A stretch of 47,755 nt of DNA from a virus, in IMG/VR virus record IMGVR_UViG_3300035701_000058, positions 1-47,755 of that record. The stretch is one strand, 5' to 3'. A program made the translations under genes and the position numbers. Of this stretch, positions 1-47,755 are shown piece by piece. Numbering within the stretch: the first letter of the stretch is position 1; every line of letters starts with the position of its first letter. The notes beneath the pieces were generated by a model. The model was not told where the DNA came from. It worked only from the letters and a program-made list of their open reading frames with translations, and searched no databases.

Positions 1-2081
1 TGCTGTGAATCCAGCCGTAGTCCAGTTCTCAGGAGCTAACGAAGTATGGTCGCACTCCAAAAGCCCGCCAACGGCAGAAAAAGCATAGTAAACACCATTG
101 TATGGCACTACGTAATGGCTAAAAGTATTGTGGTCTAGCAGAAATGGACTATATGGGTTTCTGGTGTATGTTTCAAAATCATCTGTGTATAGCAAGTCCA
201 TGCCGTAGTTAGCCTGTGTACCTCCAGGGGTACTCACGCCATTTATATAAACCCTTGTTCCCTCTTTCCATATCTGGTCTACCCAGTCACCTGGGAATAG
301 ATGCTCCCTATTTCCGATAGTGTAGGCTAATTCGCTAGGTTGAAACTCCTCAATTAACGATGTTCCGAAACTCTTGAATGCACGATATGGATTCGGCCAA
401 CTCGCTGCGACAGCTTCCCAAAGTGGTTGGGTGAACAGCATCATATAGCCATCTTCCCACGGCACGATGCTGTTCTGCCTTGCCCACAATCCTGCTCTAT
501 ATGACCCTGTATTGCCAACAGTACCAGCTTTAAGTAGCGGGTCGCCTACCTCATCTTGCACCCATGAACCTGTCACTGAAGTCCAATTACTTACAGAAGA
601 ATAATCATCAAAAGAGTTACTGCTATCTTGGAACACTTCACTCCCAGATTGATATTCCGTGATAGTATCGAGTTCAAAATTACCGTAAAAGACTTGTATG
701 TACCTATTGTAGTTAAGGTTCTCGGTTGTCCTTACTACTACCTGCAGGGAGTATCCTGGCTGTTTTGTCAACTGAGTCAATGGGTCAGGCCACCAGTAGA
801 GAGGTGCGCCTTCGTTGTCCGCAAAGATTATATCGTAGTACGTGTTATTGCCAGCATCTATATCTCCCCAATGAAAACAGCGGTCATTCAGAAACATCGT
901 TCCAAGTTTGGGATATGTTATATCAGGGAATACTACATAAGGAGGGGATTCAATCTCGGTAGCTACAGCAATCCAGTCTATAGAAATAAGACCATAATCA
1001 GTTGTCGCTGTTCCCACAAATATCTTATGTGGTTCATCTTGAGTGGGAACATTCGCTGGGGCCCAAAGAGTTTCAAATAAATCATCACAACTCCCCCGTC
1101 TGCAATATACATCTGGCTCCCACCAATAATCTCTTGATACCGCATATCTGTACATCGTATCGAACTTATTTATCTCAATTACAAAAGGCGTTGCACCAAA
1201 TGCAGAGATTTTGACAGTTTTCCCCACATCATTATTATTAAATGCCCACTGATAAGTTGGGCAAAGGGAATCATCTATATCTATTCCAGAAGACATTAAG
1301 GCATAGGTCTTACTTCCTGCGGAAAAATTATTGTTATCAGTCATTCCTGCGGAACTGCCTATGAATGAATAACCTGTAATCATGGCAAGAAAACGAAAAT
1401 CGGTTATCGTGAAATCAGTGGTAGTGGCTATGCCTTCAGTACCCGTTATATCAGAATCTACAGTAAGAATTGACGAGGCTACAGAAACAGCAGGAGTTGT
1501 ACCAATAGGGTCAGCCGACCAATCCGTATAGTTACCTAAGAACTGGGTCAGATTAGACACAGAGGTAGTGAATGGTTCAAAGTAAGCAAATACATTATCT
1601 GGTGAGAAATTAGAAGATTGCGTATTCCAATCTGGGTCAAAGAAATAAGAGAAGGTATAGTCTGTATCGGCGCTCAGACCTGCTGGCAGCAGAAGCCAGT
1701 ATTTACTTATTCCTGAAGGAAATCCAGGGCTATCGGTATAGGTTTGCAGCCAATAATACATAGAGTTATTACCGTTCGTTTCGGCAAACTCTACTGTAGA
1801 ACCATTACCAGCACCAGAGCCAGCGAAGTAACCACCATTACATAAACTCGATGTATCTATTTTGATTGGCAGAGCATAGGCAGCAGCTAAAGCCTCGTGA
1901 GTATGTATCACGAAGTCAACTTTGGCATTCGCCGTCTTTCCGTTTACAGACCATGTTCCTTCCTGAACAGTCGGCTCACCCCTGAACAGATTTACATAGA
2001 CCTTGAAATCGTCTGGAGTTCCTGCGCTTCCAGTGATAGGTAGTCCCTTGCCGTATTTGTATCCCGCTGGCCACCCTGTAA
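1..2081. repeat. Terminal redundancy, left copy (circular overlap)
   Basis: Bases 1-2081 match 45675-47755 base for base by eye, apart from one site (A at 71, G at 45745). The repeat lies wholly inside one long open reading frame and cuts it at both ends. That fits an assembly of a circular or circularly permuted genome better than a functional direct terminal repeat. The unit genome is therefore 45,674 bp. Confidence 0.95.
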
Positions 2082-4539
2082 CTACGTAATCTACCGAGAA
2101 CTCCACCCAATCTCCATAGTACGTGTTCGCAGCATCAGATATATACGTCCTATAGAGATACGTAGTATTATATTCCAAGCCACTTATTGGGAGGCTGTAA
2201 TTTCCGAGAGTCCAGTTGCCATGTTCATGCGTATCCCAAGTATCCGTTTCTGTCAATCCATATTTGAATCCCCTAGTTGTTAAATCACCGCACACTATCG
2301 AGGTTATATTCCCCTGCAAAGTCGCAGAGGTTTGACCTATATCCGAGACTGAAAACGTGTCCACGGTAGAAGCTAACACTACGAAACTGCCTACTGTGCT
2401 CCACCCCCAACCTCCAGTGCTATTACCACCAAAGGCGAAATAGTATGTAGCACCATAGGTTAGATTGCCTGTCGGAATATTATAAGAGTAGTCACCTACA
2501 ACGTAATTCCCAGAAGCAGATAAATTACCATTTGCCCACGAGCCATACGTTCCATCGGTAGGTAGAGTATGACTCGTGGTGTCCCAAAGCCACATAAGAT
2601 TAGTAACACCACCCTCGAATCCCAAGTCATCTATACTCCCATTCAGCGTAGCCGAATTGCATGTGATGTTTGTCGTAGAGTCTGCGCTGACTACAGGAGC
2701 ACTTACCAGTGTAAGTGCGATAAAGGGAGGAATAGAGCCTGTGCGAGAATAATAGTATCTGGGGAAATACCCACCACACGTACCGCTAACGTCTTTCAAT
2801 AAAACATCTATTGTTGTACTATTGCCATAAGCGCTCTTCGCTATCCACGTAATGTCCCAAGTCTGCCAGCCATAACCGCCACAAACAAAATCAACATATT
2901 GAGAGGCATCGTAGTCTCCACCAAGGGCTGTCCACGCATTCGTTCCATCATAGGTATTCCACGTTGAACCTGTCTCTGTCCAGTTACCTCTGGTCATCCT
3001 GTAAGCCCTCGTTGTTTTACCAGAGGGGTTCTGACCCAAATAATAAGTGTAATAATATGCGCACAGGGTGGCACTTGATATTTGTGATACGTCTGTTATG
3101 CTAATTCCTGAAAGGTCAAACTCTAAGATTGGGCGCATCCAAGCGCCACAGTCAACAACAAAATTAACATCCGTTCCGTAGTTCGTAGTCTTCGCATCAT
3201 TATTTGTGTAATTGTCCTTAATCGGAACGAAATAAGAGGATGTGAAATTGCCCTCAGTGCTCCATGACCAGCCACAGTCACCGAGCGCTCCTACCCTGAA
3301 ATAATACAATGTGCTAGGCTTCAATTTGGTAATTAGGTGATTATAAGAGCCAACACCGTAGCTTCCTAAGTCGCTGGTATAACTATGGGCGTATAATCCT
3401 GGTGGAGCACCTGTAGGTATTGCGTGAGAGGAAGTGTCCCATGTCCACGCTACATAAGTCGCATTACCGCCCACTACCGCAGATATGCTACCGTTGAGAG
3501 TCGCATTACCGATATTTACGCTCGTAGCAGCAGAAGTAGCAACATAGACTCCTCCATCTTGAAATGAACTAACCGAACTCCAGCCCCACCCACTGACATT
3601 GTAAGCCCCCACAGCAAAATAATACGTCATATTTGAGGTAAGATTGCCTGAAGGAATAACGTAGCTGTAATTCCCCACACCATAAGAGCCTGACGTCCAA
3701 TTACCGTTTGGCCATACCCCATAAGTCCCATCCGTGGGTAGGGCATGAGAGGAAGTGTCCCACACCCACATAATCTTAGAAGGCGTACTCGAACCGATAT
3801 CAGTGACATTTCCGTTCAGCATAGCTGAACTACAGGTTAGGCTCGTAGCTGTAGTAGTAGCCAAGGTTGCTACGTCTGTGTAGGTCACAGACAATTTAGG
3901 ACGTTTCGCCGTGTCTGTAGTGTATTCGCTAGAATGGAAGTTGGGAACGCTGCTACTATCACTCTCGGTAGTAAAACTCAACCTGACACTAAGTATGTCA
4001 CCTTGATTTGCTATCGCATCCTGCACTAAGGCTGTAACAGTAAAACTTACCCACCCTATGTAAGCATGGGTGTAACTTGTAGTAGCTTGGTCTGTATCCG
4101 TGACGGTAGGCTGAGTATTCCACGTGACCGTAGATTCTGACCAATCGGAGGTTGTCCGTTTGCATTTAATTTCCTTTGCAGCGTCTATTGACAGATAATA
4201 GGTATTCAAGTAAACGCTTAAAGTAGCAGAGGTTACCACCGCTCCATCTGGGATTGATGAGGTAGAGAACCTTTGTAAATGACGGTAGATATTAGAAGTA
4301 GCAGCGTAGTCCGTAAGGGCAACATAGACATTTGAACCATAATTAGTAGTGGGATTTGCTTGACTTACATCGGCATCCTCTGTGCTAGGCTGGATAGTTA
4401 CCGTAGTAGAAGCACTAGCTACCCCTGCCCCAAACTGCTTATCTCCTATCTGCCATGAGTAGGGCAGCACAGAGGCTAGGATGGCTAAGACCATGCAGAG
4501 AGTAAATAATGCGTACCAGTTTTGCTTTAATTTATTCAT
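1..4539 (-). CDS. Giant secreted modular adhesin, N-terminal 1513 codons (continues across the circular seam)
   Basis: I read this frame without a stop from the ATG at 4539 to base 1. Across the seam it continues at 45674 and ends at 43926, giving 2095 residues. Residues 1-8 are basic and 9-27 hydrophobic, with a possible cleavage after Ala-Ser-Ala near 44, so it looks like a Sec signal peptide. Residues about 47-220 and 434-613 look like DNRLRE (CBM96-type) domains, with the D..NYG..., sATLSVY and sTWNT signatures. Three FN3-like modules follow the pattern WDTSSHxLPT...YYFAxG...GWGWS, near 224-331, 332-434 and 614-723; a diverged fourth lies near 723-820. The start overlaps the stop of the upstream secreted gene (TAATG). 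The role is inferred as surface or carbohydrate binding; no enzymatic residues were identified. Confidence 0.9.
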   Translation of the reverse strand, partial: MNKLKQNWYALFTLCMVLAILASVLPYSWQIGDKQFGAGVASASTTVTIQPSTEDADVSQANPTTNYGSNVYVALTDYAATSNIYRHLQRFSTSSIPDGAVVTSATLSVYLNTYYLSIDAAKEIKCKRTTSDWSESTVTWNTQPTVTDTDQATTSYTHAYIGWVSFTVTALVQDAIANQGDILSVRLSFTTESDSSSVPNFHSSEYTTDTAKRPKLSVTYTDVATLATTTATSLTCSSAMLNGNVTDIGSSTPSKIMWVWDTSSHALPTDGTYGVWPNGNWTSGSYGVGNYSYVIPSGNLTSNMTYYFAVGAYNVSGWGWSSVSSFQDGGVYVATSAATSVNIGNATLNGSISAVVGGNATYVAWTWDTSSHAIPTGAPPGLYAHSYTSDLGSYGVGSYNHLITKLKPSTLYYFRVGALGDCGWSWSTEGNFTSSYFVPIKDNYTNNDAKTTNYGTDVNFVVDCGAWMRPILEFDLSGISITDVSQISSATLCAYYYTYYLGQNPSGKTTRAYRMTRGNWTETGSTWNTYDGTNAWTALGGDYDASQYVDFVCGGYGWQTWDITWIAKSAYGNSTTIDVLLKDVSGTCGGYFPRYYYSRTGSIPPFIALTLVSAPVVSADSTTNITCNSATLNGSIDDLGFEGGVTNLMWLWDTTSHTLPTDGTYGSWANGNLSASGNYVVGDYSYNIPTGNLTYGATYYFAFGGNSTGGWGWSTVGSFVVLASTVDTFSVSDIGQTSATLQGNITSIVCGDLTTRGFKYGLTETDTWDTHEHGNWTLGNYSLPISGLEYNTTYLYRTYISDAANTYYGDWVEFSVDYVVTGWPAGYKYGKGLPITGSAGTPDDFKVYVNLFRGEPTVQEGTWSVNGKTANAKVDFVIHTHEALAAAYALPIKIDTSSLCNGGYFAGSGAGNGSTVEFAETNGNNSMYYWLQTYTDSPGFPSGISKYWLLLPAGLSADTDYTFSYFFDPDWNTQSSNFSPDNVFAYFEPFTTSVSNLTQFLGNYTDWSADPIGTTPAVSVASSILTVDSDITGTEGIATTTDFTITDFRFLAMITGYSFIGSSAGMTDNNNFSAGSKTYALMSSGIDIDDSLCPTYQWAFNNNDVGKTVKISAFGATPFVIEINKFDTMYRYAVSRDYWWEPDVYCRRGSCDDLFETLWAPANVPTQDEPHKIFVGTATTDYGLISIDWIAVATEIESPPYVVFPDITYPKLGTMFLNDRCFHWGDIDAGNNTYYDIIFADNEGAPLYWWPDPLTQLTKQPGYSLQVVVRTTENLNYNRYIQVFYGNFELDTITEYQSGSEVFQDSSNSFDDYSSVSNWTSVTGSWVQDEVGDPLLKAGTVGNTGSYRAGLWARQNSIVPWEDGYMMLFTQPLWEAVAASWPNPYRAFKSFGTSLIEEFQPSELAYTIGNREHLFPGDWVDQIWKEGTRVYINGVSTPGGTQANYGMDLLYTDDFETYTRNPYSPFLLDHNTFSHYVVPYNGVYYAFSAVGGLLECDHTSLAPENWTTAGFTA

Positions 4540-6959: not shown

Positions 6960-6992
6960 GTCCTCCGTCATAATTTAGAGTCGCTGGGCATC

Positions 6993-7327: not shown

Positions 7328-8473
7328 TTAGACGTGCCCGCCCATATAGCAAGCCCTCCAATCGAGCTTGCAGGCACCGGCTACGATCCGAACTCGATAG
7401 AACACATTATCGGTTGCGAAGTCACCAGAGAAGGGACTCAGTGCGCCACCGCCCACAGTCACCTTATCTGAGTTCTTCATGCAGATTTCGGGATTCTCAT
7501 GTCCTGCCAGGTGCGCGAACTCCATCGCTGCTATATCGCCGGGGTCAGAAAACAGATACCAGCCTCGCTGTCCATTAGTCGCGTCAAAGATGGGTAGGTA
7601 GGGGTCAACAATGAGTTGCAGCCCATATTGTGCTATGACGTTATTAGTCGGATAGGGCACAGAGCCAATAGTTCCGTCTACGTCGATACTTTCTGCCAGC
7701 CACATCTTGTTAGCAGAGGTTAGAATCTGTCTTGCCGTGAACTCTAGTCCCGGGGGTACGACAAGGAACTTTGGCCGATTGTAAATCGGCTCACCGCCTA
7801 CATCGGTCAAGGCCTGCATGAATTGAACGCCTGCTTCGAGTGATACGATGCTCAGAGCAGTTACCACGCAGTTCAGTTGCCCCGCCGTAGTGTGGTCGAA
7901 CAGATTAGCGGCCGCATGAGTCCCGACATCGTTACAGTACAAACCTGTTATGATTCGGTGCTCGGTTCTTGCAGCAGCCTTGGCAAACCTCTCAGGCGTG
8001 TCCTTCAAGGCGTTCAGATCGTCATTGATAAGGGATTCCCAGCTAATGTCGAACTGGCGCCCATATTTGTAGACCTGAAGGTTGTATCGTGCTTCATCCC
8101 GGTCAGAAGCAGGATACTCGCCTTTCTCTGGTACTCGTGCAAGGTTCTGGTCGCCTCCACTTATGGCAAACCTGCGGTTTACTCTGAAGTCCCTCACAGT
8201 GGACATCTTCGTAAAGGCTTTCCACACAGGTTCAGTGGCCTTATATGAGGCGAGAAGTTGTCTGTCCAGCACGTCGCCGAACAGATAGGGGAAGTCTGAG
8301 GTTGTCAGCGCCTCGCGCACAAGGAACTCGTGCTTGTGGCTGGGCAGTCCCTGCTTATTCGATAGCAGGTTTATAGTCTCGACAAGCCTCTTTTCCCAAT
8401 CCTCAGGTCTTTTGGTTTCGTGGAGCGACTGATACCCGGACCAATCCTCCATAATCTTCATCAATTCTGGCAT
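7328..8473 (-). CDS. Major capsid protein (HK97 fold, protease-type family)
   Basis: This 381-residue protein has the length and text of HK97-fold capsid proteins. The segment RYNLQVYKYGRQFDISWESLINDDLNAL, near residues 128-155, is the typical strand-plus-helix of families processed by a prohead protease. It follows the decoration and protease/scaffold genes in the order used by many siphoviruses. About 415 copies would form a T=7 shell. The leader TTAAAAACTAGGAGGAAA before the ATG is nearly identical to that of the decoration gene upstream, which suggests matched high expression. No other gene in the window is a better candidate. Confidence 0.9.
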   Translation of the reverse strand: MPELMKIMEDWSGYQSLHETKRPEDWEKRLVETINLLSNKQGLPSHKHEFLVREALTTSDFPYLFGDVLDRQLLASYKATEPVWKAFTKMSTVRDFRVNRRFAISGGDQNLARVPEKGEYPASDRDEARYNLQVYKYGRQFDISWESLINDDLNALKDTPERFAKAAARTEHRIITGLYCNDVGTHAAANLFDHTTAGQLNCVVTALSIVSLEAGVQFMQALTDVGGEPIYNRPKFLVVPPGLEFTARQILTSANKMWLAESIDVDGTIGSVPYPTNNVIAQYGLQLIVDPYLPIFDATNGQRGWYLFSDPGDIAAMEFAHLAGHENPEICMKNSDKVTVGGGALSPFSGDFATDNVFYRVRIVAGACKLDWRACYMGGHV

Positions 8474-31873: not shown

Positions 31874-33292
31874 TTAGCAAGGATATTTCGATGCGCTCGG
31901 GTAATTTGTGGTCGAAGGAATCTGGCAAGCAAAGGGAGCCTGGGTTATCGTCTCTGCCCACTTCCAGTTGTCCGACTGTGTTTTTGAAATCACGAGGACT
32001 TGCTGCTTGCCTACCATGATTTGATTAACTAAATCTTCTTTCGCGTCGAGCCATGCGCTGAAGAAGGCCGTCCAGTCCTGCTGCGCTGCTCCTTCAATCG
32101 CGTTCACGGTATAGATACACTGGTTCCGAGCGAAGAGGGTTATATCCATGGACTCGATGAGCAGTGGTGTAGCATTAAGTCCATAAGCGGGGTAGGTCAC
32201 ATATACGACTTGCCCTGGAGCCAGCCCATACTTCCAGACTGCAAACGTGAACTGTCTGCCCATCACGGCGAATTTCGTGAGCTTAGAGTTAGCCGCTGCC
32301 CATGCCCCATCTCTCGTGTTAAGATTAGGCTCATCATCTACCCATTCAACGATTCCTGTGCCGCCCTCTATGGCGAGCTGCGCTGTCTGCGCTACTACGT
32401 CCTCAGATAGAGCCAGAATGTCGTACTCTCCGAAGTATGTGAACTCCAGCGCGGCTCCGACTGAAGGGGCTACTGCAGCCGATATAACCGCATCACCTTT
32501 GTTCCAGTAGAAATCTTTGCCTGTATCTATACCCTTAATTCCTACCGTCTTGACCACAGTATTTATTTTGCAGGTCGGGACTTGGTTGAGGGGGAAGCTC
32601 ATCGGCCACGCTTTGATTATGCCATCGCCTGTTCGAGTTTCTACCTGCGAAGATGTAGTATCGCGGCCTGCGCGGATATATTGCCTGTTTCGATATTGCG
32701 GATTCTTCTTGCTCAAATGGCAACTGCCTTTGATAATATCGAGTGCGGAAACGGCAAAAGGGGCTGAGGTCGTGGTGGGGGGAATAAACCAGAGCGCCTT
32801 GTTCCTGTCGATGTACCAGATATAACCAGACTTCTCGGCCAGAGCATCGAACGCCTTGCTGACCTGCGCATAGTTTATCACCGTCTCCAGAATAGTTGAA
32901 CCTGCCTGAATAGAGCCCACAGTGATACCTTCGTCCGTCAGGTACTTCGTCACGAGGTCTTGGACTATGTAGCCTGCGGTTTGGCTCAGGTAAGATTCTG
33001 CAGCTAATCTTTTGTCGGCAAGATAATGCCAGTCCACACATTTAAGGGTGTGCAAAAGAACGGTCGAATGAGGGATTCGGGTAATCGGGTCTGGGGTATC
33101 AACAAAGCCTCCAAAGACCAGATTGGTATTATCGTAAACCGTGACCTTCTGGCCTTTGACATAGTTGGCCGTCCCAGGCGCATCATACACCACGAACTCA
33201 GCCGTGCTTCTCATGCCTATAGCATCATGCAGCTTCAGGCTTCGCTTCTGCATGATGATAGGGACATCGGTAACTTTTGAGATTATGGTCAT
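31874..33292 (-). CDS. Tail protein (distal tail/baseplate hub type)
   Basis: This 472-residue protein is coupled by ATGA to the tape measure. The N-terminus is beta-rich with a domain (VTVYDNTNLVFGGFVDTPDPI, residues 50-70) like the first domain of gp27-type hubs. The centre holds AGYIVQDLVTKYLTDEGITVGSI and FDALAEKSGYIWYIDRNKALWFIPP, which are also hub signatures. It probably links the tube to the tip. No protease or lysozyme domain was identified. Confidence 0.8.
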   Translation of the reverse strand: MTIISKVTDVPIIMQKRSLKLHDAIGMRSTAEFVVYDAPGTANYVKGQKVTVYDNTNLVFGGFVDTPDPITRIPHSTVLLHTLKCVDWHYLADKRLAAESYLSQTAGYIVQDLVTKYLTDEGITVGSIQAGSTILETVINYAQVSKAFDALAEKSGYIWYIDRNKALWFIPPTTTSAPFAVSALDIIKGSCHLSKKNPQYRNRQYIRAGRDTTSSQVETRTGDGIIKAWPMSFPLNQVPTCKINTVVKTVGIKGIDTGKDFYWNKGDAVISAAVAPSVGAALEFTYFGEYDILALSEDVVAQTAQLAIEGGTGIVEWVDDEPNLNTRDGAWAAANSKLTKFAVMGRQFTFAVWKYGLAPGQVVYVTYPAYGLNATPLLIESMDITLFARNQCIYTVNAIEGAAQQDWTAFFSAWLDAKEDLVNQIMVGKQQVLVISKTQSDNWKWAETITQAPFACQIPSTTNYPSASKYPC

Positions 33293-36200: not shown

Positions 36201-36489
36201 CCTGCTCGAAGCTCACCCCGACATTACTCAGAATTGAGGATAGGCGAATGAGCATGGCTTCTTCATCGGCTGCACCCTTAACGGCTAACCCCAAGAACGC
36301 AGTTATGCCAGCGCCGATTCCAGTTATAGCAACGCCCACTTTGGTCATTTCGGCTGCTGCCAGTGCAGTACTTTTTGATTGCTCTTGCAGCCTTTTCAGG
36401 TCGGCATTGAGTTTCTGCATACCGCTGTCAAAATCTGATAAATCTATGCCCACGCGGAGCATCGCGTCGCCAATATTTATTCCAGCCAT
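33289..36489 (-). CDS. Tape measure protein with expanded C-terminal repeats
   Basis: This is a 1066-residue protein. Residues about 1-240 are helical; hydrophobic segments lie near 46-70, 250-280 and 297-360. A coiled coil runs from about 385 to 560. Near 745 it has QHGAIAMKPTVLLVGEKAPEAVLPLDKL, the common tape-measure motif GE.gPEavlPL. From there to about 1020 it contains about twelve 21-23-residue repeats (P-x-V-F-P-L-D-K-L-A-x-L-L). At about 0.15 nm per residue the tail would be near 160 nm. It starts by TAATG overlap with the chaperone T frame. Confidence 0.92.
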   Translation of the reverse strand: MAGINIGDAMLRVGIDLSDFDSGMQKLNADLKRLQEQSKSTALAAAEMTKVGVAITGIGAGITAFLGLAVKGAADEEAMLIRLSSILSNVGVSFEQVKKPLDDFMMATEKASSVSHDKLYEALIQLVNITGDYEKSLKLLPLALDLAAAKGIDLATASMLVGKVAQGNTTMLARYGIILKEGASASEALAAIQARVGGTAEKYGKSTAGAMAQIKNSIDTVMESIGSVLLPIVKTLADALSTLISWFNKIPSPVKTMGVVLAVLAGALALVIGTSLVMIGQWPKLIQLWTGFKAIVMSSTVQLILHKVALVALTIAGTALRGVLTVLTAAQWLLNVAMNANPIGLIITAIGLLITVGLVLWRHWDKITSFFVKSFKIIGDGVSWLMRILTGASAPVKELTDAEKEAAAATKALADQTKALAEAQALNALQQETLGKDISANADQQEALNKQIADAQDLYSNTQKNAAGYKEEIANLNGVLKGLNKASKDAETELKRLEKAYSDAEKKVSDCEKAIDSANRRLSELSSPRLEGMQAYEDQIFDIDQQLMKLELEKSKVGELYFTGQDEIDRLEKLRRELELTRDIEFAPQLYKLKEGVETVQGLNVETMFGPAWDEIQTIGISLAPGGVLFEGLKTANTELATATTNLDAQKVVVNNYATAIGLVQGQLDIINDKVADVLETQSDGILVLENSLFVAKTTANDLETALGRVKTAAEEAARAIANTPNVPPPTSPTEVPGYGAYVTPAQHGAIAMKPTVLLVGEKAPEAVLPLDKLASLLKGAAASKVVEVLFPFEKLAALLRDERSTKLPDIVFPLADMAARLSDAQAPFIQEVRLALDKLAGILSGQQEPKVPEPFPLDELSALLKDQQTPIIAEVKEALDGVAGLLRSQEPPVIPAPVFPVDELAALITNQKVPEAPPVEFPLDKLATILSDTQTPIVGELRFALDKLANLIAEKPPIVPQSPFPLTELAGLLGQGQAPIVREVRQAFDTLASLFKERQTPIIPEVVFPFDKLAALLVPMNQTAPAQAISINVNVAELVVREEADIHKVGQAIVDTIYLRQGIRT

Positions 36490-38146: not shown

Positions 38147-38564
38147 CGGCTCGTATCATCACCGAAAAAAATGTCAGGCACCTGTAATAATTCGGGATCT
38201 CGGCGTCCTGCAGGTCCATGCCCTGAACCTCTTCGCTTGCTCCAAGGATGTAATACGTATTGCCGCCTACTACTACCGCCGTCCGTTCAAGCCCCTGCAA
38301 ATTATCGTAGAGGGCACGATATACTTGGCGAGCTACAAGAGGCGTAATCGCCCATGAATCTATTTGGAAGCTGGGCGATATTATTCCAGCAATGTAGGAA
38401 CTAGACCTACCCCCTCGCACAAAAAAACCGACAGCAGGAAGCAAGCAACCCTCTGGCAATCTTGGGCAATATATCCTTGGCGTAGCACCGCCTATTAGGC
38501 TAGTCAATGCCCCACAAGTCACCAAATAAGCACGAAGAATGCTATTCACATCTGCGATTGCCAT
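38142..38564 (-). CDS. Tail completion/terminator protein (DUF3168-like)
   Basis: This 140-residue protein reads LRAYLVTCGALTSLIGGATPRIYCPRLPEGCLLPAVGFFVRGG at the start, then SFQIDSWAITPLVARQVYRALYDNLQG and a C-terminal YYRCLTFFSVMIR. This is the DUF3168 layout (l...l..l.g..griy...ap.g..lP.i.y...), known for tail completion proteins. The start overlaps the HNH stop (TAATG). It comes before the tail tube, as usual. Confidence 0.85.
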   Translation of the reverse strand: MAIADVNSILRAYLVTCGALTSLIGGATPRIYCPRLPEGCLLPAVGFFVRGGRSSSYIAGIISPSFQIDSWAITPLVARQVYRALYDNLQGLERTAVVVGGNTYYILGASEEVQGMDLQDAEIPNYYRCLTFFSVMIRAE

Positions 38565-39154
38565 TATTTTATCCCTATCGAGATTTCTGCCATTTCAGTA
38601 ATTTCAGATTTATTGGCAAATTGATCCATCGCATCCTTGTAACCCTTCTCATAACCATCCGCAAGTCCCTTTTGGTAGCCACTGATAAATCCCTCAATGT
38701 GTTCCGACATGTGCTTACTGCGAGAACTAATCAATTCCAGATTTTCTATACGATTGTCTGTTTTGTCTCCATTCCTGTGATGGACAAGTTCTGTAGATTC
38801 AAGGCATCTACCCAAGAATTTCGCCATTATGAGCCGATGTCCATACACATAATGGTCTCTTTTGTGGGTCATTGCATAATAGGGATCATCAGGAGTAAGG
38901 CTTATTGATATATATCCATCTCCCCTATGTCTGATACCACCTCGCCATTGAGGATTGTTTTCACGCCTACTCTTTAATCCTCGATCTTTGTCAGCGCAAA
39001 GTTTACATCGTTGACTTATTGACTCCCCCATCCTTGCCCCAATCCATCCTTCCTTGCCACAATCTAAGCAGGCGTGCCATATAAAAGCCTCATTTCGCTG
39101 ACTTATACTCTTTCCGATTTCCCTACCTCGTCTTACCTCGCCAATCTCAGGCAC
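38564..39154 (-). CDS. HNH homing-type endonuclease, second copy
   Basis: This 196-residue protein starts at a GTG (MPEIGEVRRGREIG). It has zinc Cys at 29/32 and 50/53, then YGHRLIM near 104-110, VHHRNGD at 124-130 and DNRIENLEL at 133-141. The end differs from its paralogue at 5790-6329: instead of a coiled coil it carries FISGYQKGLADGYEKGYKDAM, with three GY-K repeats. It splits the neck genes, between the HK97 gp10-like gene with its small neighbour and the tail completion gene. It is probably a mobile element. Confidence 0.9.
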   Translation of the reverse strand: MPEIGEVRRGREIGKSISQRNEAFIWHACLDCGKEGWIGARMGESISQRCKLCADKDRGLKSRRENNPQWRGGIRHRGDGYISISLTPDDPYYAMTHKRDHYVYGHRLIMAKFLGRCLESTELVHHRNGDKTDNRIENLELISSRSKHMSEHIEGFISGYQKGLADGYEKGYKDAMDQFANKSEITEMAEISIGIK

Positions 39155-39349: not shown

Positions 39350-39700
39350 TCAAGCCCCCAGATACTTTTTAATGAGCTCACTTACTTTCTCAGGAGTAAA
39401 ATTCAAATCCAGGGCTGGCTTAAAATATGGTCTTGCCGCGACAAAACTCCCCGACTTGGTGAAATGACCAGTTTCCAGGAAGCCGCCGTACCCTGATGTA
39501 GAGAATACCTGTCCTTGCAAACCCTGTACCTCAGATGCTATAGACCTCGCATTATTGCCAGTCAGCCAGGGTGAACCCGATATGGTGTCGTGGTGTATAT
39601 CTACGATGACATCTACCATCGTCGCCTCTGCCGCTGCTTTGACCGCTTTATCAACAGCGTCAATCCTTATGTTGGTTGCGAAATCGAATCTAATCTTCAC
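39350..39700 (-). CDS. HK97 gp10-like head-tail protein
   Basis: This 116-residue protein has its start set at the GTG at 39700, overlapping the upstream stop as TAGTG. VKIRFDFATNIRIDAVDKAVKAAAEATMVDVIVDIHHDT... then SPWLTGNNARSIAS, GGFLETGHFTKSGSFVAARPYFKPAL match HK97 gp10-type connector/minor tail proteins. It typically joins the head completion proteins to the tail. Its order in the cluster is as expected. Confidence 0.82.
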   Translation of the reverse strand: MKIRFDFATNIRIDAVDKAVKAAAEATMVDVIVDIHHDTISGSPWLTGNNARSIASEVQGLQGQVFSTSGYGGFLETGHFTKSGSFVAARPYFKPALDLNFTPEKVSELIKKYLGA

Positions 39701-40029
39701 TATCTCACAATCCTCAGATAACATTCCTTATGGTGGTTCTCGATGGTCCCAGCCTTAATGGGAATAACCGCCAGCACTTCATAGGTTGCGCCGTCAACTA
39801 TTACCTGGTCACGTTCCGATATGTCCACATCACCGATGAACAGTTTGGCGTCAGCAATTACCACTTCGGCGCCTACCTTAAACTCTCGTGCCTGCGCCCC
39901 TGAGAGCCTGCAGAGTTGCCCTATCAGGTGGTCGTGGTATGTCTTTACTGGCTGGCCGTAGGCATCGGCAGAAATCGAACTATATTGCCTTACAGTGCAG
40001 GTTGATACCAGTAAGTCATTGAATCCCAT
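39700..40029 (-). CDS. Head-closure (stopper) protein
   Basis: This 109-residue protein starts after GAGGTAAGAG. The text FNDLLVSTCTVRQYSSISADAYGQPVKTY, then LIGQLCRLSG...KLFIGDVDISERDQVIVDGATYEVLAVIPI is typical of the stopper family (strand-rich, with ...v..d..iv.g..YeV...). It seals the portal after packaging and docks the tail. The gene order adaptor-stopper-gp10 supports the call. Confidence 0.8.
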   Translation of the reverse strand: MGFNDLLVSTCTVRQYSSISADAYGQPVKTYHDHLIGQLCRLSGAQAREFKVGAEVVIADAKLFIGDVDISERDQVIVDGATYEVLAVIPIKAGTIENHHKECYLRIVR

Positions 40030-40044
40030 CTCTTACCTCACGCA

Positions 40045-40410
40045 TCACACAGCATATTGATTATCTGTATTATTTACCAAGTCCATAGTAGCCCAGCCCA
40101 GCGCCGGCGCGATGTTAGCCGCAGCCGCTGCATCCGCTAAACTCTGCCGGTAACTCTCTCGATACTGGGTCGCCAGGGTCAACTTGTTTGACGCCGCTTT
40201 CTTCGTAAAGCCGTAATCGCCTATCTTCTCTGATTCTATGCCCTCTGTCAGATTTGCTGCCCACGACTCCAGCGCTCGAGCTGCAGCCAGCAGAACAATG
40301 TCACCCTCCATGGTTAAGAATGCCTGTATCTGGCCATCGGAGAAGTGCCGGGTGCTCTCTGTGTTATCACTTATCAGAAGCCGTACCAAATCTGTATTAG
40401 ATGCTGTCAT
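40045..40410 (-). CDS. Head-tail connector (adaptor) protein
   Basis: This is a 121-residue helical protein. It begins LVRLLISDNTESTRHFSDGQIQAFLTMEG, then LLAAARALESWAAN and YGFTKKAASNKLTLATQYRESYRQ, which matches adaptor proteins of the HK97 gp6/SPP1 gp15 type. It starts by ATGA overlap with the gene upstream. It forms a ring under the portal. Confidence 0.82.
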   Translation of the reverse strand: MTASNTDLVRLLISDNTESTRHFSDGQIQAFLTMEGDIVLLAAARALESWAANLTEGIESEKIGDYGFTKKAASNKLTLATQYRESYRQSLADAAAAANIAPALGWATMDLVNNTDNQYAV

Positions 40411-40730
40411 GCGCTTTCCTCCACAACGACCTGTACCGTTTTCGAGCCTTCCTTACTAATTACGCCCTCATAGATTTTGACTTTGCCGATATAGGTCCCA
40501 GCCACATTGAAATCTCCGGCAACTATGTCAAGGTCGACTTCTCCTGCAATACCAGAGACAAGGTCGACCCCAACAGTCCAAAGGATTGTACCGGGAGCAT
40601 ATTCATCCCAAACCACGAAGTTGAAGGTTAATCCTACTGCAGAGAGGTCGATAACCACATCATCATCATTGGTCACAATCACCCTGCGCTTATATCCAAA
40701 GTCGCCTTTATTGAATCGTAGCTCCTGCAT
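40407..40730 (-). CDS. BppU-like N-terminal domain protein
   Basis: This 107-residue protein starts after GGAGGTTGT. The pattern LRFNKGDFGYKRRVIVTNDDDVVIDLS, then TLWTVGVDLVSG and VAGTYIGKVKIYEGVISKEGSKTVQVVVEE fits the BppU N-terminal (DUF2479-like) fold: Ig-like strands with a linker to longer fibres. It sits just after the 21-residue repeat protein and may anchor it to the virion. Confidence 0.75.
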   Translation of the reverse strand: MQELRFNKGDFGYKRRVIVTNDDDVVIDLSAVGLTFNFVVWDEYAPGTILWTVGVDLVSGIAGEVDLDIVAGDFNVAGTYIGKVKIYEGVISKEGSKTVQVVVEESA

Positions 40731-40738
40731 ACAACCTC

Positions 40739-43700
40739 CTAGATGCGATTAGCTCTCCGCACCTGAATCTCGTGTTCCTTCTTCCATGTCGCAATCGTAT
40801 GTTCTTTGAGCAGGGTTTCTATCGTCTTGCTCCACCACCGGACCGTCCTGCGGAGTTGCCCCAGTTCGCCTGTAATTCCTATTACGGCTTTTATTATCTG
40901 GAGCCTGCCGATGTCTGCCATCATGGTTTGATTGAAGGCGACCTGTCCGACCTGCACAAGTATTATCTGCCCCTTATACTCTCCAATTATGTACTCGAAC
41001 GCCATACCATTCTCAGCGAGTATGACCTGAATCAAGGGGTCTTGAATCTTAATGAGTGTACCATCGAGTGAGTGTAAACCGAATAGGATTTGGAGTTTCG
41101 CAAGGTCGTTCAATATCGCGGTATCGGTTATCCCCTGCGCCGCAAGGATAACCTGCTCCAGCATCTCGACCGGAGTGGCTGGGGTATAGACTATCGTGAT
41201 GGTTTGGTTGACTATGATTAAAACGAGCTGTCCTGTTTCGAGGAATGTGCCAAGGTCAGCATTCCCTTGAACCACAATGATAATCTGGCCATCAGCACCC
41301 AAGAAGGTTGCGGCATCTGACTCGCCCTGTACTGCTAAAATCGTCTGGAGCTTGCCTGTATCACTGAACACGGCATAGGGAGTCAGGATACCATTCTCGC
41401 CCAGCACTACCTGAAGATGTGGAGCTTCCAGCCAAGTCGCGTTATCTATCTCGGCATGGTCAACGACTATGGTTTGAAGTTTACCTAATTCTGCTGCAGT
41501 ATGCAGATCGGCCTCGGTTTGCGTAACTATCACTTCCTGAATCTTATCCAGTTCGTTAGCTGTAAGTGAACTCAAAACACCATTGGCGACGTTAATTATG
41601 ATAAGTGCTATCTCCTCGCCACCGGCCATAAAGACGTCAGCGACTAATTGTATAACATCAATGATTTGCAATCTCTCCGTATCGAGGAAGATTGCCAAAT
41701 CTGTAGTGCCGAGTGTGGCAAGGAGTGTGACTACTGCCCCAAGCTCTGCCAAGATACGATTCTCTGCCTCACCATCTACAGCCAGGATGATTTGCAGTAG
41801 GCCTGTCTCGATACGAGAAATATCAGCCGTTATGTCTTGCTCGGCAAGAATGACCTGTAATCGTTCCGTATCAAGCCAAATAGCATTGTCAACTTCCGCT
41901 TGAATAGTGAGGATTATTTCGAGCTTGCCCAACTCTACCATAGGTTGCAGGTCGGATTCTCCGTGAGCGACTAAGACCTCCTGAACCTTATCACGCTCAT
42001 TCGCCGTCTGCATATCTAGGGTTCCCTGCGATACAGTAATAACGATGAGCGCGACTTCTTCCCCGCCTGCCATGAGCAGATCGGAGGCTCCCTGTTCGAC
42101 CAGAACTATTTGCAGCTTCATGGTATCGAGGAATATCCCCACGCTCGATTGTTCGCTGACCACAACTATTGGTATCGCAGCCGTGGGCTCCAGATAAGTG
42201 ACTTGATATGCGATGTCGTTCAACGCAAGAATGACCTGCAGCAATTCGGTATCAATGCGGAGCATACCTGCCGCAATATCGTGAACCGTAACTATTGTAA
42301 TTGGCTTCTCGGTATCGAGGAAAGTCACAAGGTCGGAGTTTATCTGCAGGGCTCTTATCTCAACGACCTTGCCCAGCTCCGGCCAGACCGCGACCTGCGA
42401 GATTCCCTGAACGGCAAGGATTATTTCTAATTGGTCGAGTTCTTTTCGAGTTATGAGAGTAGTCAAACCCTGCTCGGCGACAATGATAATGTCCTTGCCA
42501 GAATCTACCATGTCCTGACGGTCGGCTTCGGTTTGTATCGCAAACAGGACTTGTAAAAGACCAGTCTCCATCTTGTAGGCTTCGTCGACTAAGAGCCCTT
42601 GCATAACAAGAACGGTCTGGAGCCGACCTGGATAATCTTGCAAGTCATAACTGTAGAGCTGGTCAATCATTATGGCTATATCGCTTGCGCCTGCGGTAGC
42701 CAGAATGACCTGCTCCTTGCCTGTTTCGTCGATGGCCGGGTACCAGATAATCCATGTGTCACTCTCACCTTGAACGGCGAGAATTACTTGAAGCGTTTCA
42801 AGACCCAAGAACGTCGCAAGGTCGACTTCCGCAACTTCAACTTTGATTACTTGTTCCGGAGTATCTACGCGAATGATAACCGTGGCGACCGCGTGTTCAG
42901 CCAAGAGAACTTGGAGTAATGCAAACTCCGTATATGCCTTGGTGTCTGCTTCACCGTCGACAACCAGAATCACAATCTCGTGTTCTGTCTCGTTGATAAG
43001 ATAGCCTGCTACTGGCATACCTTGTTCGACGATGATTGTTTCCTCTGCGGCCTCGACCATTATTAGCTGGTCATAGTTCCACTGGGCGCATCTAACTAAG
43101 ATAAGCTGCATTGTGGCGAGCATGATTTGATTATCAGTCTCACCATCTGCGGCCAGAATGACCTGCTCCTGTGCGTCAAGAGGCCAGAAGCGCCAAGCTA
43201 TCAGGTCGTGTTCAACAACGATAACCTGCGTGAGTCCTATCTCGTTAATCGCCGAGAGCTGGTCAGTCTTACCTTGGGCAGCGAGAATCACCTGGAGCTT
43301 TGCCGTATCAAGGAATATACATAGGTCTGACTCGGTTTGGTCGACCAGTAGAACCTGCAGCTTTGCGGTATCGAGAAATGTTAGTCCATCCAGAACTCCC
43401 TGAATCGAGAGTAGAATCTGCAGCTTTTGAGTTTCTGAGAAAACGAGCAGGTCGCTACGCTCTTGGTCAACGCGGATTGCGATCACCTTGCCAAGTTCGT
43501 TAATGGTTCGAAGTGTGGTAAGTCCTTGTTCGGCTAACACTATTTGGAGCTTGGCGAGGTCGGTAAAGCTACACAGGGCCATTATCCCCTGCGCTACTAC
43601 AACTTCTTGAACCTTCTCGGTATCAAGCCATGTTGCTTGGGTAGTGATTGCCTGCGCTACTAATATCGTTTGGGTCTTGGCGGTTTCGGCAACTATCCTC

Positions 43701-43924
43701 TGCTCCGCGATACCCTGTGCAGCTACCACTGTTTGAATCAAGCCAGTGTCCTTGAGGGTAGCTTGGTCGGCCACGCCATGCGCGGCAACGATAGTTACAG
43801 TTAAGCCTGTCTCATCATAGACTACATTTGGTACGGCATAACCGTTCTCGTTGAGATGGTCAATTACAGAAAAGCCAAACTCATCAAGAATAGTTATTAC
43901 AGCATATCCAAATTCGTCAATCAT
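40739..43924 (-). CDS. 1061-residue protein built of about 48 21-residue repeats
   Basis: The protein opens with three short DEFGYAV-type repeats and ends in a basic helical tail (WWSKTIETLLKEHT). Between them lies a tandem repeat of about 21 residues, D-T-x-K-L-Q-V-I-L-A-x-Q-G-x-x-D-x-x-x-F-L, with about 48 copies. Only occasional units are 20-25 long. The strand LQVILAVQG alternates with a TFLDT turn, suggesting a beta-solenoid or a stack of short strands. No signal peptide or membrane segment is seen. It starts two bases after the end of the giant adhesin. I know of no family with this repeat. A head- or tail-attached fibre is likely. Confidence 0.9.
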   Translation of the reverse strand: MIDEFGYAVITILDEFGFSVIDHLNENGYAVPNVVYDETGLTVTIVAAHGVADQATLKDTGLIQTVVAAQGIAEQRIVAETAKTQTILVAQAITTQATWLDTEKVQEVVVAQGIMALCSFTDLAKLQIVLAEQGLTTLRTINELGKVIAIRVDQERSDLLVFSETQKLQILLSIQGVLDGLTFLDTAKLQVLLVDQTESDLCIFLDTAKLQVILAAQGKTDQLSAINEIGLTQVIVVEHDLIAWRFWPLDAQEQVILAADGETDNQIMLATMQLILVRCAQWNYDQLIMVEAAEETIIVEQGMPVAGYLINETEHEIVILVVDGEADTKAYTEFALLQVLLAEHAVATVIIRVDTPEQVIKVEVAEVDLATFLGLETLQVILAVQGESDTWIIWYPAIDETGKEQVILATAGASDIAIMIDQLYSYDLQDYPGRLQTVLVMQGLLVDEAYKMETGLLQVLFAIQTEADRQDMVDSGKDIIIVAEQGLTTLITRKELDQLEIILAVQGISQVAVWPELGKVVEIRALQINSDLVTFLDTEKPITIVTVHDIAAGMLRIDTELLQVILALNDIAYQVTYLEPTAAIPIVVVSEQSSVGIFLDTMKLQIVLVEQGASDLLMAGGEEVALIVITVSQGTLDMQTANERDKVQEVLVAHGESDLQPMVELGKLEIILTIQAEVDNAIWLDTERLQVILAEQDITADISRIETGLLQIILAVDGEAENRILAELGAVVTLLATLGTTDLAIFLDTERLQIIDVIQLVADVFMAGGEEIALIIINVANGVLSSLTANELDKIQEVIVTQTEADLHTAAELGKLQTIVVDHAEIDNATWLEAPHLQVVLGENGILTPYAVFSDTGKLQTILAVQGESDAATFLGADGQIIIVVQGNADLGTFLETGQLVLIIVNQTITIVYTPATPVEMLEQVILAAQGITDTAILNDLAKLQILFGLHSLDGTLIKIQDPLIQVILAENGMAFEYIIGEYKGQIILVQVGQVAFNQTMMADIGRLQIIKAVIGITGELGQLRRTVRWWSKTIETLLKEHTIATWKKEHEIQVRRANRI

Positions 43925-43925
43925 T

Positions 43926-46900
43926 TTAATAAATCATTCCCCCGCCTGACGTAGACACATTGCGCCTGTGAACTCCCAGAACAGTGAACGTAATCGTTAC
44001 TTCTTCGTAACCGCCTACAGGGTCAGTTCCAAATACCATACTAGCAACATAGACCCCTGCGCTGAGTGAACTACCTATCTCTAATTTCGCTTCCCACAAT
44101 GTAGACTCATCATGTATGACCATTGTAACCCAATCCTGTGCTGTATTGCCTAGCACCAGTCCTTCATCATAATCATCACCCTCCTTGAACAAAGTCAGCC
44201 TCACTTCGTCTTTGGCTGGCGCAGTAGCAACGACATTGGCAGTTGCGCCGTTCACAAAATCCGTTACCATAACCGTAATAGCGTCCAGTGTAAATAAACT
44301 AAGATTAGTCGTATTCCCTAGACAGTCATCACCTTCCAATACCCACGGACTAGGTTCAGCACCTTTGCCCCAATATACAGTAGAGAACTCCACTATCCCC
44401 AAGACCCAAGACGAAGGTGTATTGGAGATATCAGGCAAATAGAAACTCAACTCCTCGCCATATACCCACTCGCCGTCTGAGGCGTTCCCAGAAGCTCTGA
44501 AATATATCAAACCACCAGCCACTAAGTCAGTAGCCACGTGGTCAAAGGTTTCATCCTTGACTAAATCCTCCTCATCACATAACCCATAGTAAGTGTAATC
44601 AGTCTCATTATAGGGTGTATTCTCTGGATTTGCGTAGCCCACGATATCCCAGACAAAAGCTACGTGCTTCGCTCCACTCGTACCTGTTGCCTGACCATTC
44701 AAAGTAGCGTTATGACTGAGTATGCTGGTGGCAGCTAGGGTAACTATGCTAAAACTGTATTCGGCTTCGGTAGCTTCTCCTACTACTGGCTCAACAGTCA
44801 GCCATTCTCTGACCCTCCAGTTATTGAAACAGCCATTGGAATCTTTTGTAGCCAACCCCGCCTTCCACGGTGAGGTGGTATAAGTTGCATCTGTGACATT
44901 AAATGCCAGTACCCAATTATCACCCCAGAGAGAATACCATACCTTGAAATTATTGCCATCGCATTGTACCCTCAGCCTAGCAGGAAATCCTATTTGAAGC
45001 TGTGGGGCAGGATAGTTAGGGATACTTACAGCCGTAGCCAAAGACGTTAGGCTTGAGCCAGTAAACTTAAATAACCTGCATTGAGGAGCACCCGAATTGT
45101 AGTACAAGTCTGCATAATATCCTGTATCTGCGGCTGAGGAGTACCTGAAGATTATGCCAGCATTCGAGTCTCCTGCGTCTGCCCCAGGAAACACTTCGGC
45201 AATTATCTCAGCGTTCGTAAAAGTCTTGTTATTCAGGTAACTCTTATAGAATCCTGCACTTGTGGTATTCTGCTTATATTTATTGTCAAGGTTCGCAGGT
45301 ATCCACGTTCCATCGAGTGTCGCCGATTTTAATGTAAGTATCCAGTCAGGAATCCATCGAGCAACAGGTGTCTGTGGTACATCTGTTATAGAGGTAGTAG
45401 CTACCGTCATATACCATCCTGTTTCAGCAGGATAAACTTCTGGAGTTCTCATCAACGCTGAACTAGCCCAAGGTGGCAAATCAGATAAGCTAACATTAAC
45501 AAGACTGCTCCAATGCCCCGCACCTGGGAATGCGTATAAGTCGCCATCCATCTTAGAGTATGATATCTGAAACAGAGGCCCTGAACCTACGCAAAACAGA
45601 TACCAATACTGAGAACCATCATATTCAATACGGAAGTCCTCGAAATAAGACCCGAAATTAGCTATAGTCGCATCTGCTGTGAATCCAGCCGTAGTCCAGT
45701 TCTCAGGAGCTAACGAAGTATGGTCGCACTCCAAAAGCCCGCCAGCGGCAGAAAAAGCATAGTAAACACCATTGTATGGCACTACGTAATGGCTAAAAGT
45801 ATTGTGGTCTAGCAGAAATGGACTATATGGGTTTCTGGTGTATGTTTCAAAATCATCTGTGTATAGCAAGTCCATGCCGTAGTTAGCCTGTGTACCTCCA
45901 GGGGTACTCACGCCATTTATATAAACCCTTGTTCCCTCTTTCCATATCTGGTCTACCCAGTCACCTGGGAATAGATGCTCCCTATTTCCGATAGTGTAGG
46001 CTAATTCGCTAGGTTGAAACTCCTCAATTAACGATGTTCCGAAACTCTTGAATGCACGATATGGATTCGGCCAACTCGCTGCGACAGCTTCCCAAAGTGG
46101 TTGGGTGAACAGCATCATATAGCCATCTTCCCACGGCACGATGCTGTTCTGCCTTGCCCACAATCCTGCTCTATATGACCCTGTATTGCCAACAGTACCA
46201 GCTTTAAGTAGCGGGTCGCCTACCTCATCTTGCACCCATGAACCTGTCACTGAAGTCCAATTACTTACAGAAGAATAATCATCAAAAGAGTTACTGCTAT
46301 CTTGGAACACTTCACTCCCAGATTGATATTCCGTGATAGTATCGAGTTCAAAATTACCGTAAAAGACTTGTATGTACCTATTGTAGTTAAGGTTCTCGGT
46401 TGTCCTTACTACTACCTGCAGGGAGTATCCTGGCTGTTTTGTCAACTGAGTCAATGGGTCAGGCCACCAGTAGAGAGGTGCGCCTTCGTTGTCCGCAAAG
46501 ATTATATCGTAGTACGTGTTATTGCCAGCATCTATATCTCCCCAATGAAAACAGCGGTCATTCAGAAACATCGTTCCAAGTTTGGGATATGTTATATCAG
46601 GGAATACTACATAAGGAGGGGATTCAATCTCGGTAGCTACAGCAATCCAGTCTATAGAAATAAGACCATAATCAGTTGTCGCTGTTCCCACAAATATCTT
46701 ATGTGGTTCATCTTGAGTGGGAACATTCGCTGGGGCCCAAAGAGTTTCAAATAAATCATCACAACTCCCCCGTCTGCAATATACATCTGGCTCCCACCAA
46801 TAATCTCTTGATACCGCATATCTGTACATCGTATCGAACTTATTTATCTCAATTACAAAAGGCGTTGCACCAAATGCAGAGATTTTGACAGTTTTCCCCA

Positions 46901-47755
46901 CATCATTATTATTAAATGCCCACTGATAAGTTGGGCAAAGGGAATCATCTATATCTATTCCAGAAGACATTAAGGCATAGGTCTTACTTCCTGCGGAAAA
47001 ATTATTGTTATCAGTCATTCCTGCGGAACTGCCTATGAATGAATAACCTGTAATCATGGCAAGAAAACGAAAATCGGTTATCGTGAAATCAGTGGTAGTG
47101 GCTATGCCTTCAGTACCCGTTATATCAGAATCTACAGTAAGAATTGACGAGGCTACAGAAACAGCAGGAGTTGTACCAATAGGGTCAGCCGACCAATCCG
47201 TATAGTTACCTAAGAACTGGGTCAGATTAGACACAGAGGTAGTGAATGGTTCAAAGTAAGCAAATACATTATCTGGTGAGAAATTAGAAGATTGCGTATT
47301 CCAATCTGGGTCAAAGAAATAAGAGAAGGTATAGTCTGTATCGGCGCTCAGACCTGCTGGCAGCAGAAGCCAGTATTTACTTATTCCTGAAGGAAATCCA
47401 GGGCTATCGGTATAGGTTTGCAGCCAATAATACATAGAGTTATTACCGTTCGTTTCGGCAAACTCTACTGTAGAACCATTACCAGCACCAGAGCCAGCGA
47501 AGTAACCACCATTACATAAACTCGATGTATCTATTTTGATTGGCAGAGCATAGGCAGCAGCTAAAGCCTCGTGAGTATGTATCACGAAGTCAACTTTGGC
47601 ATTCGCCGTCTTTCCGTTTACAGACCATGTTCCTTCCTGAACAGTCGGCTCACCCCTGAACAGATTTACATAGACCTTGAAATCGTCTGGAGTTCCTGCG
47701 CTTCCAGTGATAGGTAGTCCCTTGCCGTATTTGTATCCCGCTGGCCACCCTGTAA
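43926..47755 (-). CDS. Giant secreted modular adhesin, C-terminal part (continues across the circular seam)
   Basis: This is the continuation of the gene that begins at 4539. The stop is at 43926; the frame is still open at the window edge. In the numbering of the full protein, a DUF2341-like segment lies near 1206-1287 (DIIFADNEGAPLYWW...IQVFYGN). A five-bladed-propeller-like region, resembling GH43-type proteins, follows near 1356-1646 (LLYTDDFETYTRNPYSPFLL, VPYNGVYYAF). A laminin/LamG-like jelly-roll lies near 1651-1811 (GIIFRYSSAADTGYYADLYY), and another FN3-like module near 1820-1926. Residue 1490 is Ala here and Val in the left copy. A start at the GTG at 47585 has no support. Confidence 0.9.
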   Translation of the reverse strand, partial: TGWPAGYKYGKGLPITGSAGTPDDFKVYVNLFRGEPTVQEGTWSVNGKTANAKVDFVIHTHEALAAAYALPIKIDTSSLCNGGYFAGSGAGNGSTVEFAETNGNNSMYYWLQTYTDSPGFPSGISKYWLLLPAGLSADTDYTFSYFFDPDWNTQSSNFSPDNVFAYFEPFTTSVSNLTQFLGNYTDWSADPIGTTPAVSVASSILTVDSDITGTEGIATTTDFTITDFRFLAMITGYSFIGSSAGMTDNNNFSAGSKTYALMSSGIDIDDSLCPTYQWAFNNNDVGKTVKISAFGATPFVIEINKFDTMYRYAVSRDYWWEPDVYCRRGSCDDLFETLWAPANVPTQDEPHKIFVGTATTDYGLISIDWIAVATEIESPPYVVFPDITYPKLGTMFLNDRCFHWGDIDAGNNTYYDIIFADNEGAPLYWWPDPLTQLTKQPGYSLQVVVRTTENLNYNRYIQVFYGNFELDTITEYQSGSEVFQDSSNSFDDYSSVSNWTSVTGSWVQDEVGDPLLKAGTVGNTGSYRAGLWARQNSIVPWEDGYMMLFTQPLWEAVAASWPNPYRAFKSFGTSLIEEFQPSELAYTIGNREHLFPGDWVDQIWKEGTRVYINGVSTPGGTQANYGMDLLYTDDFETYTRNPYSPFLLDHNTFSHYVVPYNGVYYAFSAAGGLLECDHTSLAPENWTTAGFTADATIANFGSYFEDFRIEYDGSQYWYLFCVGSGPLFQISYSKMDGDLYAFPGAGHWSSLVNVSLSDLPPWASSALMRTPEVYPAETGWYMTVATTSITDVPQTPVARWIPDWILTLKSATLDGTWIPANLDNKYKQNTTSAGFYKSYLNNKTFTNAEIIAEVFPGADAGDSNAGIIFRYSSAADTGYYADLYYNSGAPQCRLFKFTGSSLTSLATAVSIPNYPAPQLQIGFPARLRVQCDGNNFKVWYSLWGDNWVLAFNVTDATYTTSPWKAGLATKDSNGCFNNWRVREWLTVEPVVGEATEAEYSFSIVTLAATSILSHNATLNGQATGTSGAKHVAFVWDIVGYANPENTPYNETDYTYYGLCDEEDLVKDETFDHVATDLVAGGLIYFRASGNASDGEWVYGEELSFYLPDISNTPSSWVLGIVEFSTVYWGKGAEPSPWVLEGDDCLGNTTNLSLFTLDAITVMVTDFVNGATANVVATAPAKDEVRLTLFKEGDDYDEGLVLGNTAQDWVTMVIHDESTLWEAKLEIGSSLSAGVYVASMVFGTDPVGGYEEVTITFTVLGVHRRNVSTSGGGMIY
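45675..47755. repeat. Terminal redundancy, right copy (circular overlap)
   Basis: This is the second copy of bases 1-2081. The only difference found is G at 45745 where the left copy has A. It shows that the assembled sequence closes on itself. Confidence 0.95.

Follow-up and report, generated by a model that had tools for sequence, protein, structure and literature searches.

What structure is formed by a protein that consists almost wholly of short repeats and is encoded between a very large adhesin and the head-tail connector genes of a virus? The question is raised by a 1061-residue protein, here P0001, encoded in the window, by which we mean the whole stretch of DNA analysed (47,755 nucleotides, positions 1 to 47,755 of IMG/VR virus record IMGVR_UViG_3300035701_000058). 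A first-pass annotation of this DNA had proposed a virion fibre or a partner of the adhesin.

Gene order around the repeat protein

The features of the window that bear on this question are as follows.

1-2081 and 45675..47755, no strand: terminal direct repeat of 2081 bp, 1 mismatch between copies
1..4539, minus strand: adhesin gene, first part, with a signal-peptide-like N-terminus and CBM96 and disaggregatase-related domains
7328..8473, minus strand: major capsid protein, the marker for collecting relatives (Pfam Phage_capsid_4, 1.6e-46)
39350..39724, minus strand: tail completion/Neck1 protein (PHROG 5, 1.8e-8)
39700..40029, minus strand: head-tail adaptor/head-closure-like protein (PHROG 615, 1.3e-5)
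40045..40410, minus strand: head-tail adaptor, Ad1-like (PHROG 4931 head-tail adaptor, 9e-4; phrog_1732, 1e-9)
40407..40730, minus strand: 107-aa gene between repeat protein and adaptor, 90% identical in L002
40739..43924, minus strand: repeat protein P0001, proposed whisker stalk, 1061 aa, ATG at 43924, stop ending at 40739
40742..40858, minus strand: basic C-terminal tail, residues 1023-1061, proposed virion-proximal end (from charge and conservation against L002)
40859..43819, minus strand: array of 21-residue units, residues ~36-1022 (unit profile and de novo EM)
43820..43924, minus strand: N-terminal cap, residues 1-35, three ~12-residue D-E-F-G-[YF]-x-[VI]-like turns, read from sequence
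43926..45674, minus strand: adhesin gene, 3' part, stopping 1 nt before the repeat gene and continuous with 1..4539 across the ends

The direct overlap of the ends marks the record as a complete, closed genome (~45.7 kb), circular or terminally redundant. Two separate adhesin genes were considered and rejected, as the partial reading frames represent one gene split by this overlap; joined across the ends, it encodes 2095 aa with a single stop, at the end. Pfam matches in the adhesin are to CBM96 (4.9e-30) and Disaggr_repeat (5.3e-10). Its stop and the P0001 start are 1 nt apart, with equal spacing in the close relative L002, and the reported position of P0001 directly after the adhesin thus stands. 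A signal-peptide-like start is unusual for a virion part of a tailed virus; the adhesin and the gene preceding it (4539-5144, minus strand) both have signal-peptide- or TM-like starts amid virion genes.

The minus-strand order begins with a methylase, a terminase-like ATPase and a portal-like protein (read from sequence), continues with a ChaB-containing protein, a cement protein (Phage_cement_2) and the capsid protein (Pfam), and then with small genes, the adhesin, the repeat protein and the 107-aa gene, and ends with the adaptor, the adaptor/closure protein, Neck1, a tail protein and the tape measure (PHROGs). P0001 is thereby encoded within the head-tail connector region, two genes upstream of the adaptor. 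The gene on its adaptor side had been called BppU-like; the 107-aa gene is indeed there, but no family, BppU included, matches its product in Pfam, NCBIfam, PHROGs or PDB sequences. This bears on a tail or baseplate fibre in which the 107-aa protein would serve as a BppU-type adaptor, an idea suggested by the earlier fold-level impression of that protein. With no BppU match in those four libraries, and with the genes after the tape measure, the expected baseplate site, about 10 kb away, we regard such a fibre as very improbable.

Several other features of this genome were recorded. The tape-measure protein (33289-36489, minus strand; L002:17655-20855) carries ~10 diverged P-[LF]-[DE]-x-L-A-x-L-L copies at its end (residues ~750-1020), and its 1066 aa in both viruses are close to the 1061 and 1062 of the stalk protein. 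A 204-aa protein (6357-6971, minus strand) resembles Pfam Gp80 (podophage GP4 fibre I) weakly, below the cut-off at E 0.0037. HNH-endonuclease-like reading frames, read from sequence, occupy differing insertion sites among the structural genes (5790-6329 and 38564-39154, minus strand; L002:13855-14475). Capsid relatives are found on Dehalococcoidia and Euryarchaeota MAG contigs, and within the phage collection the best capsid match, at 40% identity, is to Blf4/L4768, a virus of the methanogen Methanoculleus.

The 21-residue array

Self-similarity of P0001, measured by autocorrelation, peaks at lags of 21, 42 and 63 residues, with a maximum 25 s.d. above 200 shuffles. A unit profile recognizes 42 units at a lenient cut and de novo EM recognizes 41; at 15 bits or more the profile finds 37, and none in 200 shuffles. 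Autocorrelation, unit profile and shuffle controls thus agree with the first-pass description of a 21-residue repeat protein of 1061 residues. Its estimate of about 48 copies over almost the whole protein was right as to the tandem array, but 48 comes from dividing the length by 21, and only 41-42 copies are recognizable. Nor is the period strict as had been claimed, since 25 of the 40 unit steps are exactly 21 residues and the remainder are 20, 22 or 42 (de novo EM). The unit consensus is [F/W]-[L]-[E/D]-[T/L]-[G/A]-K-L-Q-[I/V]-I-L-A-x-Q-G-[E/I]-[T/S]-D-x-x-[T/I]. Residues 1-35 and ~1023-1061 lie outside the repeat, and a second-order duplication involves a 148-residue block (residues 598-745 and 746-893). 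Half of all residues are A, I, L, M, F, V, W or Y. The protein is acidic overall, with a net charge of -102 over residues 1-1016 and +5 over the last 45, and has no signal peptide as read from sequence. TRF detected no DNA-level tandem repeat in the gene, which implies that the units are old.

The repeats matched no significant family in Pfam, PHROGs, NCBIfam or PDB sequences, and tblastn of 50,697 phage and 72,556 plasmid records gave no match. Scans with the full-length protein identified no relative in bacterial or archaeal genomes, phages or plasmids, and a single one, L002, in viral contigs. P0001 is a real, previously undescribed repeat family, and its description as unfamiliar has held in these sequence searches.

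An AlphaFold2 model of residues 99-246, built from an 11-row alignment, places two beta strands in each unit length of 21, following the period, at a low pLDDT of 51; the full-length model (pLDDT 39) is too poor for use. P0001 is thus predicted to be beta-rich. Disorder is rejected as far as prediction goes, and the repeat array may be a solenoid. A Foldseek search of the PDB with the segment model, a poor query at that pLDDT, returned no match at or below 0.001 and a match list that is noise.

YD/Rhs repeats have a unit of about 21 residues, and a YD/Rhs-like shell protein was considered on the basis of this equal unit length and a superficial likeness to the D-x-G-x-L / G / F pattern of the YD motif. 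Pfam searched to E<=10 and NCBIfam to E<=1 gave no RHS or YD match, P0001 has neither an Rhs core nor a toxin domain, and a head-stalk-connector architecture is seen elsewhere. The YD/Rhs reading is largely refuted, and we consider it scarcely credible.

The one close homologue, encoded at L002:10001-13189, is 65% identical to P0001 and 1062 aa long, while the capsid proteins of the two viruses are 94% identical; near-equal length despite this divergence indicates that repeat copy number is fixed. Identity is 38-53% over residues 1-450, 77-85% over residues 601-1050 and 85-92% toward the C-terminal end, reaching 92% at the very end, a polar divergence of the kind expected if the N-terminus faces outward and the C-terminus is anchored. 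The overall dN/dS of about 0.22 reflects purifying selection and supports P0001 as a translated gene. The L002 adhesin (L002:7006-9999) keeps CBM96 and then has a BNR_4 domain (5.5e-10) that was not matched in the first 1513 residues of the window adhesin, which suggests an exchange of the adhesin middle.

Heads, stalks and tails at the adaptor locus

Relatives were gathered by similarity of the tail tube (24 loci) and of the capsid protein (the best 80 of 151 relatives). The sequence family of the P0001 repeat occurs in four other virus groups, and its members, with significant similarity and a shared period, are in L002, L007, L009, L109 and L152, of which L007 contributes only a fragment (E about 1e-3). 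In L009, L109 and L152 a lectin-like N-terminal head and a homologous 21-residue array form one open reading frame (BLASTP against P0001: 2e-26, 1e-28 and 2e-19, respectively). This single-protein arrangement supports the suggestion that P0001 is a partner of the adhesin.

In these relatives the gene that immediately precedes the adaptor often follows a common plan of N-terminal lectin-like head, short-repeat array and short basic C-terminal tail. Among the loci listed, 16 of 33 distinct open reading frames of at least 200 aa in this position are strongly repetitive, compared with 9 of 299 elsewhere, most of these being tape-measure proteins (Fisher p 2e-12, a value that overstates independence as the loci are related). 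These loci have at least seven types of stalk unit: the 21-mer; 20-mers with TPxTLSLTITEYAP, TSTGLTISVTI and AETIGITDSLIRR; an 18-mer with ADSVAIADSISK; a 14-mer with IGDTxQxIWN; and a ~20-mer with TDGLKIGD, the last on a Dehalococcoidales MAG contig. The 18-mer and TSTGLTIS-type stalks may be related to each other. We also considered whether the 21-residue unit shares an ancestor with the 18- and 20-residue stalks; hhalign detected no such relationship, giving E 0.95-0.99 against the 18-mer and the TSTGLTIS 20-mer (C and D types).

Heads are shared across these types. L009 (21-mer) and L095 (18-mer) have a common head (55% identity over 448 aa), as do L045 (20-mer) and L059 (18-mer; 56% over 437), L109 and L051 (53% over 175), and L152 and L111 (34% over 363). 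These alignments indicate that heads are swapped between stalk types. A tail with the motif ISR-x-x-I-x-R-L-x-I-S-R-M-P-L-Y-R-W...RR is common to the 18-mer, TDGL-type and AETIG-type stalks and occurs weakly in others; that of the E-type protein of L021 matches the C/G-type tail profile (3e-11). The presence of one basic C-terminal tail in three stalk types points to the C-terminus as the anchor. The 21-mer proteins of L009, L109 and L152 have a different tail, H-x-LGK-xxx-Y-x-LGK, and that of P0001 and its L002 homologue is unlike both, P0001 lacking ISRL..SRMPLYRW (E 0.7 against the shared anchor-tail profile).

The anchor motif also occurs in stalkless reading frames of 56-74 aa just upstream of the adaptor (L087:10560-10727, L101:12735-12938 and L106:4247-4468), the match being significant only for the 56-aa L087 one; these are possibly a minimal form. 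The turns of the P0001 cap (43820-43924) resemble in pattern the K-E-D-G-x-x-L-L turns of this 56-aa protein, and the structural region of L087 also encodes a 914-aa collagen-like G-P-S-G-P repeat protein (L087:3135-5876).

The link to the neck is provided by podophages. In MW202473.1 (1e-10; 2e-15 in pairwise comparison of the heads) and MW202478.1 (2e-10), the protein annotated as 'tail tubular protein A' begins with a region that matches the L109 head. In both, the homologous head is followed by a stalk of 22-residue repeats (z 17.8 in MW202473.1; read from sequence in MW202478.1) and by a C-terminal neck connector domain that matches the solved connector 8ck1_E (1.6e-17 and 1.3e-15, respectively) and PHROG 394 (1.2e-35). 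Such a one-chain fusion covalently ties a head and short-repeat stalk to the neck ring, with the C-terminus inward. The podophage proteins differ from P0001 in that they are single fused chains, P0001 and its adhesin being the products of separate genes, and their stalk units are not recognizably homologous to the 21-residue unit. The chain from P0001 to the neck has two steps: the repeat shared with L109 (1e-28) and the homology of the L109 head to the podophage heads.

These fusions bear on two further explanations. A capsid (head) fibre or decoration would place stalk and adhesin on capsomers, as with phi29 gp8.5 and decorations of the Hoc type. The P0001 gene does lie between capsid and connector genes, and capsomer head fibres are well documented; gp8.5 is an accessory virion fibre of the head, to which P0001 is comparable as a proposed virion fibre, but it is a capsomer-bound trimer with a helical stem and an N-terminal base (PMC6542822). 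Since the proteins nearest to it in architecture have a head-tail connector, not a capsid or cement protein, as their fusion partner, and the P0001 gene is near the adaptor while a cement protein gene already precedes that of the capsid, we consider a capsid fibre unlikely. The neck is preferred over capsid or baseplate mainly because of the podophage connector fusions and the adjacency to the adaptor in siphovirus-like relatives. Alternatively, adhesin and P0001 could be displayed on the infected cell as a non-virion device for superinfection exclusion or host coating. The signal-peptide-like N-terminus of the adhesin and the hydrophobic start of the preceding gene would suit this role. P0001 and its fused relatives lack a signal peptide, the P0001 gene is inside a head-neck-tail operon and the podophage equivalent of head and stalk is fused to a connector, all of which make display on the cell decidedly unlikely.

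A proposed neck whisker

We conclude that P0001 probably serves an uncultured long-tailed virus as the stalk of a whisker (neck fibre) attached at the neck, bearing the CBM96 adhesin outward. The earlier fibre idea is largely upheld, and gene order and the podophage fusions favour a more specific form of it, a neck whisker; the attachment of P0001 itself to the neck is what we infer from these relatives. In the proposed whisker, acidic beta-rich units would stack into an elongated stalk of about 20-25 nm, if each unit contributes one 4.8-A rung. The conserved basic C-terminus would sit at the neck by the adaptor ring, directly or via the 107-aa protein, and the fast-evolving N-terminal half would point outward, carrying the 2095-aa CBM96/disaggregatase-type adhesin, which would be synthesized as its own chain by translational coupling. 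Such a whisker may bind host-surface polysaccharide reversibly before the tail tip engages, and host scanning has been proposed as a role for such modules (PMC8540738). Counting against a neck whisker are the absence from P0001 of both tail motifs of its relatives, the signal-peptide-like start of the adhesin, which the model leaves unexplained, the 107-aa gene between P0001 and the adaptor, the link to the sequence-unrelated podophage stalk by way of the L109 head, and the low confidence of the structural models (pLDDT 51 and 39).

To our knowledge, neck appendages are poorly understood, with few placed on a structure and their function mostly unknown. The Anabaena myophage A-1(L) has neck fibres of gp82-gp81-gp80 with a distal CBM protein (PMC10966104). 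Judged by architecture, the proposed whisker would resemble them as a long neck-attached fibre with a repetitive stalk and a distal carbohydrate-binding protein, made of several gene products; the A-1(L) stalk consists of many globular gp81 trimers with an N-terminal anchor (gp82N), whereas P0001 is one chain of 21-residue units that is apparently anchored C-terminally. The lactococcal neck passage structure, which forms whiskers with terminal knots (PMC4759559), is comparable by description as an optional, variable neck appendage with thin whiskers encoded among neck-tail genes, but its gene is upstream of the major tail protein gene, unlike the P0001 locus. Polysaccharide binding is the weakest step of the proposal, as the CBM of the A-1(L) neck fibre did not bind its own host (PMC10966104) and the function of the lactococcal whiskers is unknown (PMC4759559). 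On this reading, the 21-residue repeat is a new family in a novel form of a known kind of device, the neck fibre.

More tentatively, these loci may represent a widespread undescribed whisker system of uncultured tailed viruses, with a plan of adhesin head, short-repeat beta stalk and neck anchor. Unrelated repeats of 14-22 residues would replace its stalk wholesale, with independent retention or exchange of heads and anchors. The 21-residue unit would then represent a new beta-repeat fold, and the window would show the plan at its extreme, its adhesin having become a chain of its own. A single genomic position in a large group of uncultured viruses would then encode a modular whisker whose stalk is exchangeable for unrelated repeats, and such free exchange of stalk sequence suggests that what counts in a stalk is only its length, stiffness or charge. 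Pfam, PHROGs and NCBIfam all lack the 21-residue unit, and no protein of solved structure resembles it in sequence, so that its structure would be new information. The natural stalk variants, together with the podophage connector fusions, would provide direct material for establishing neck attachment and polarity.
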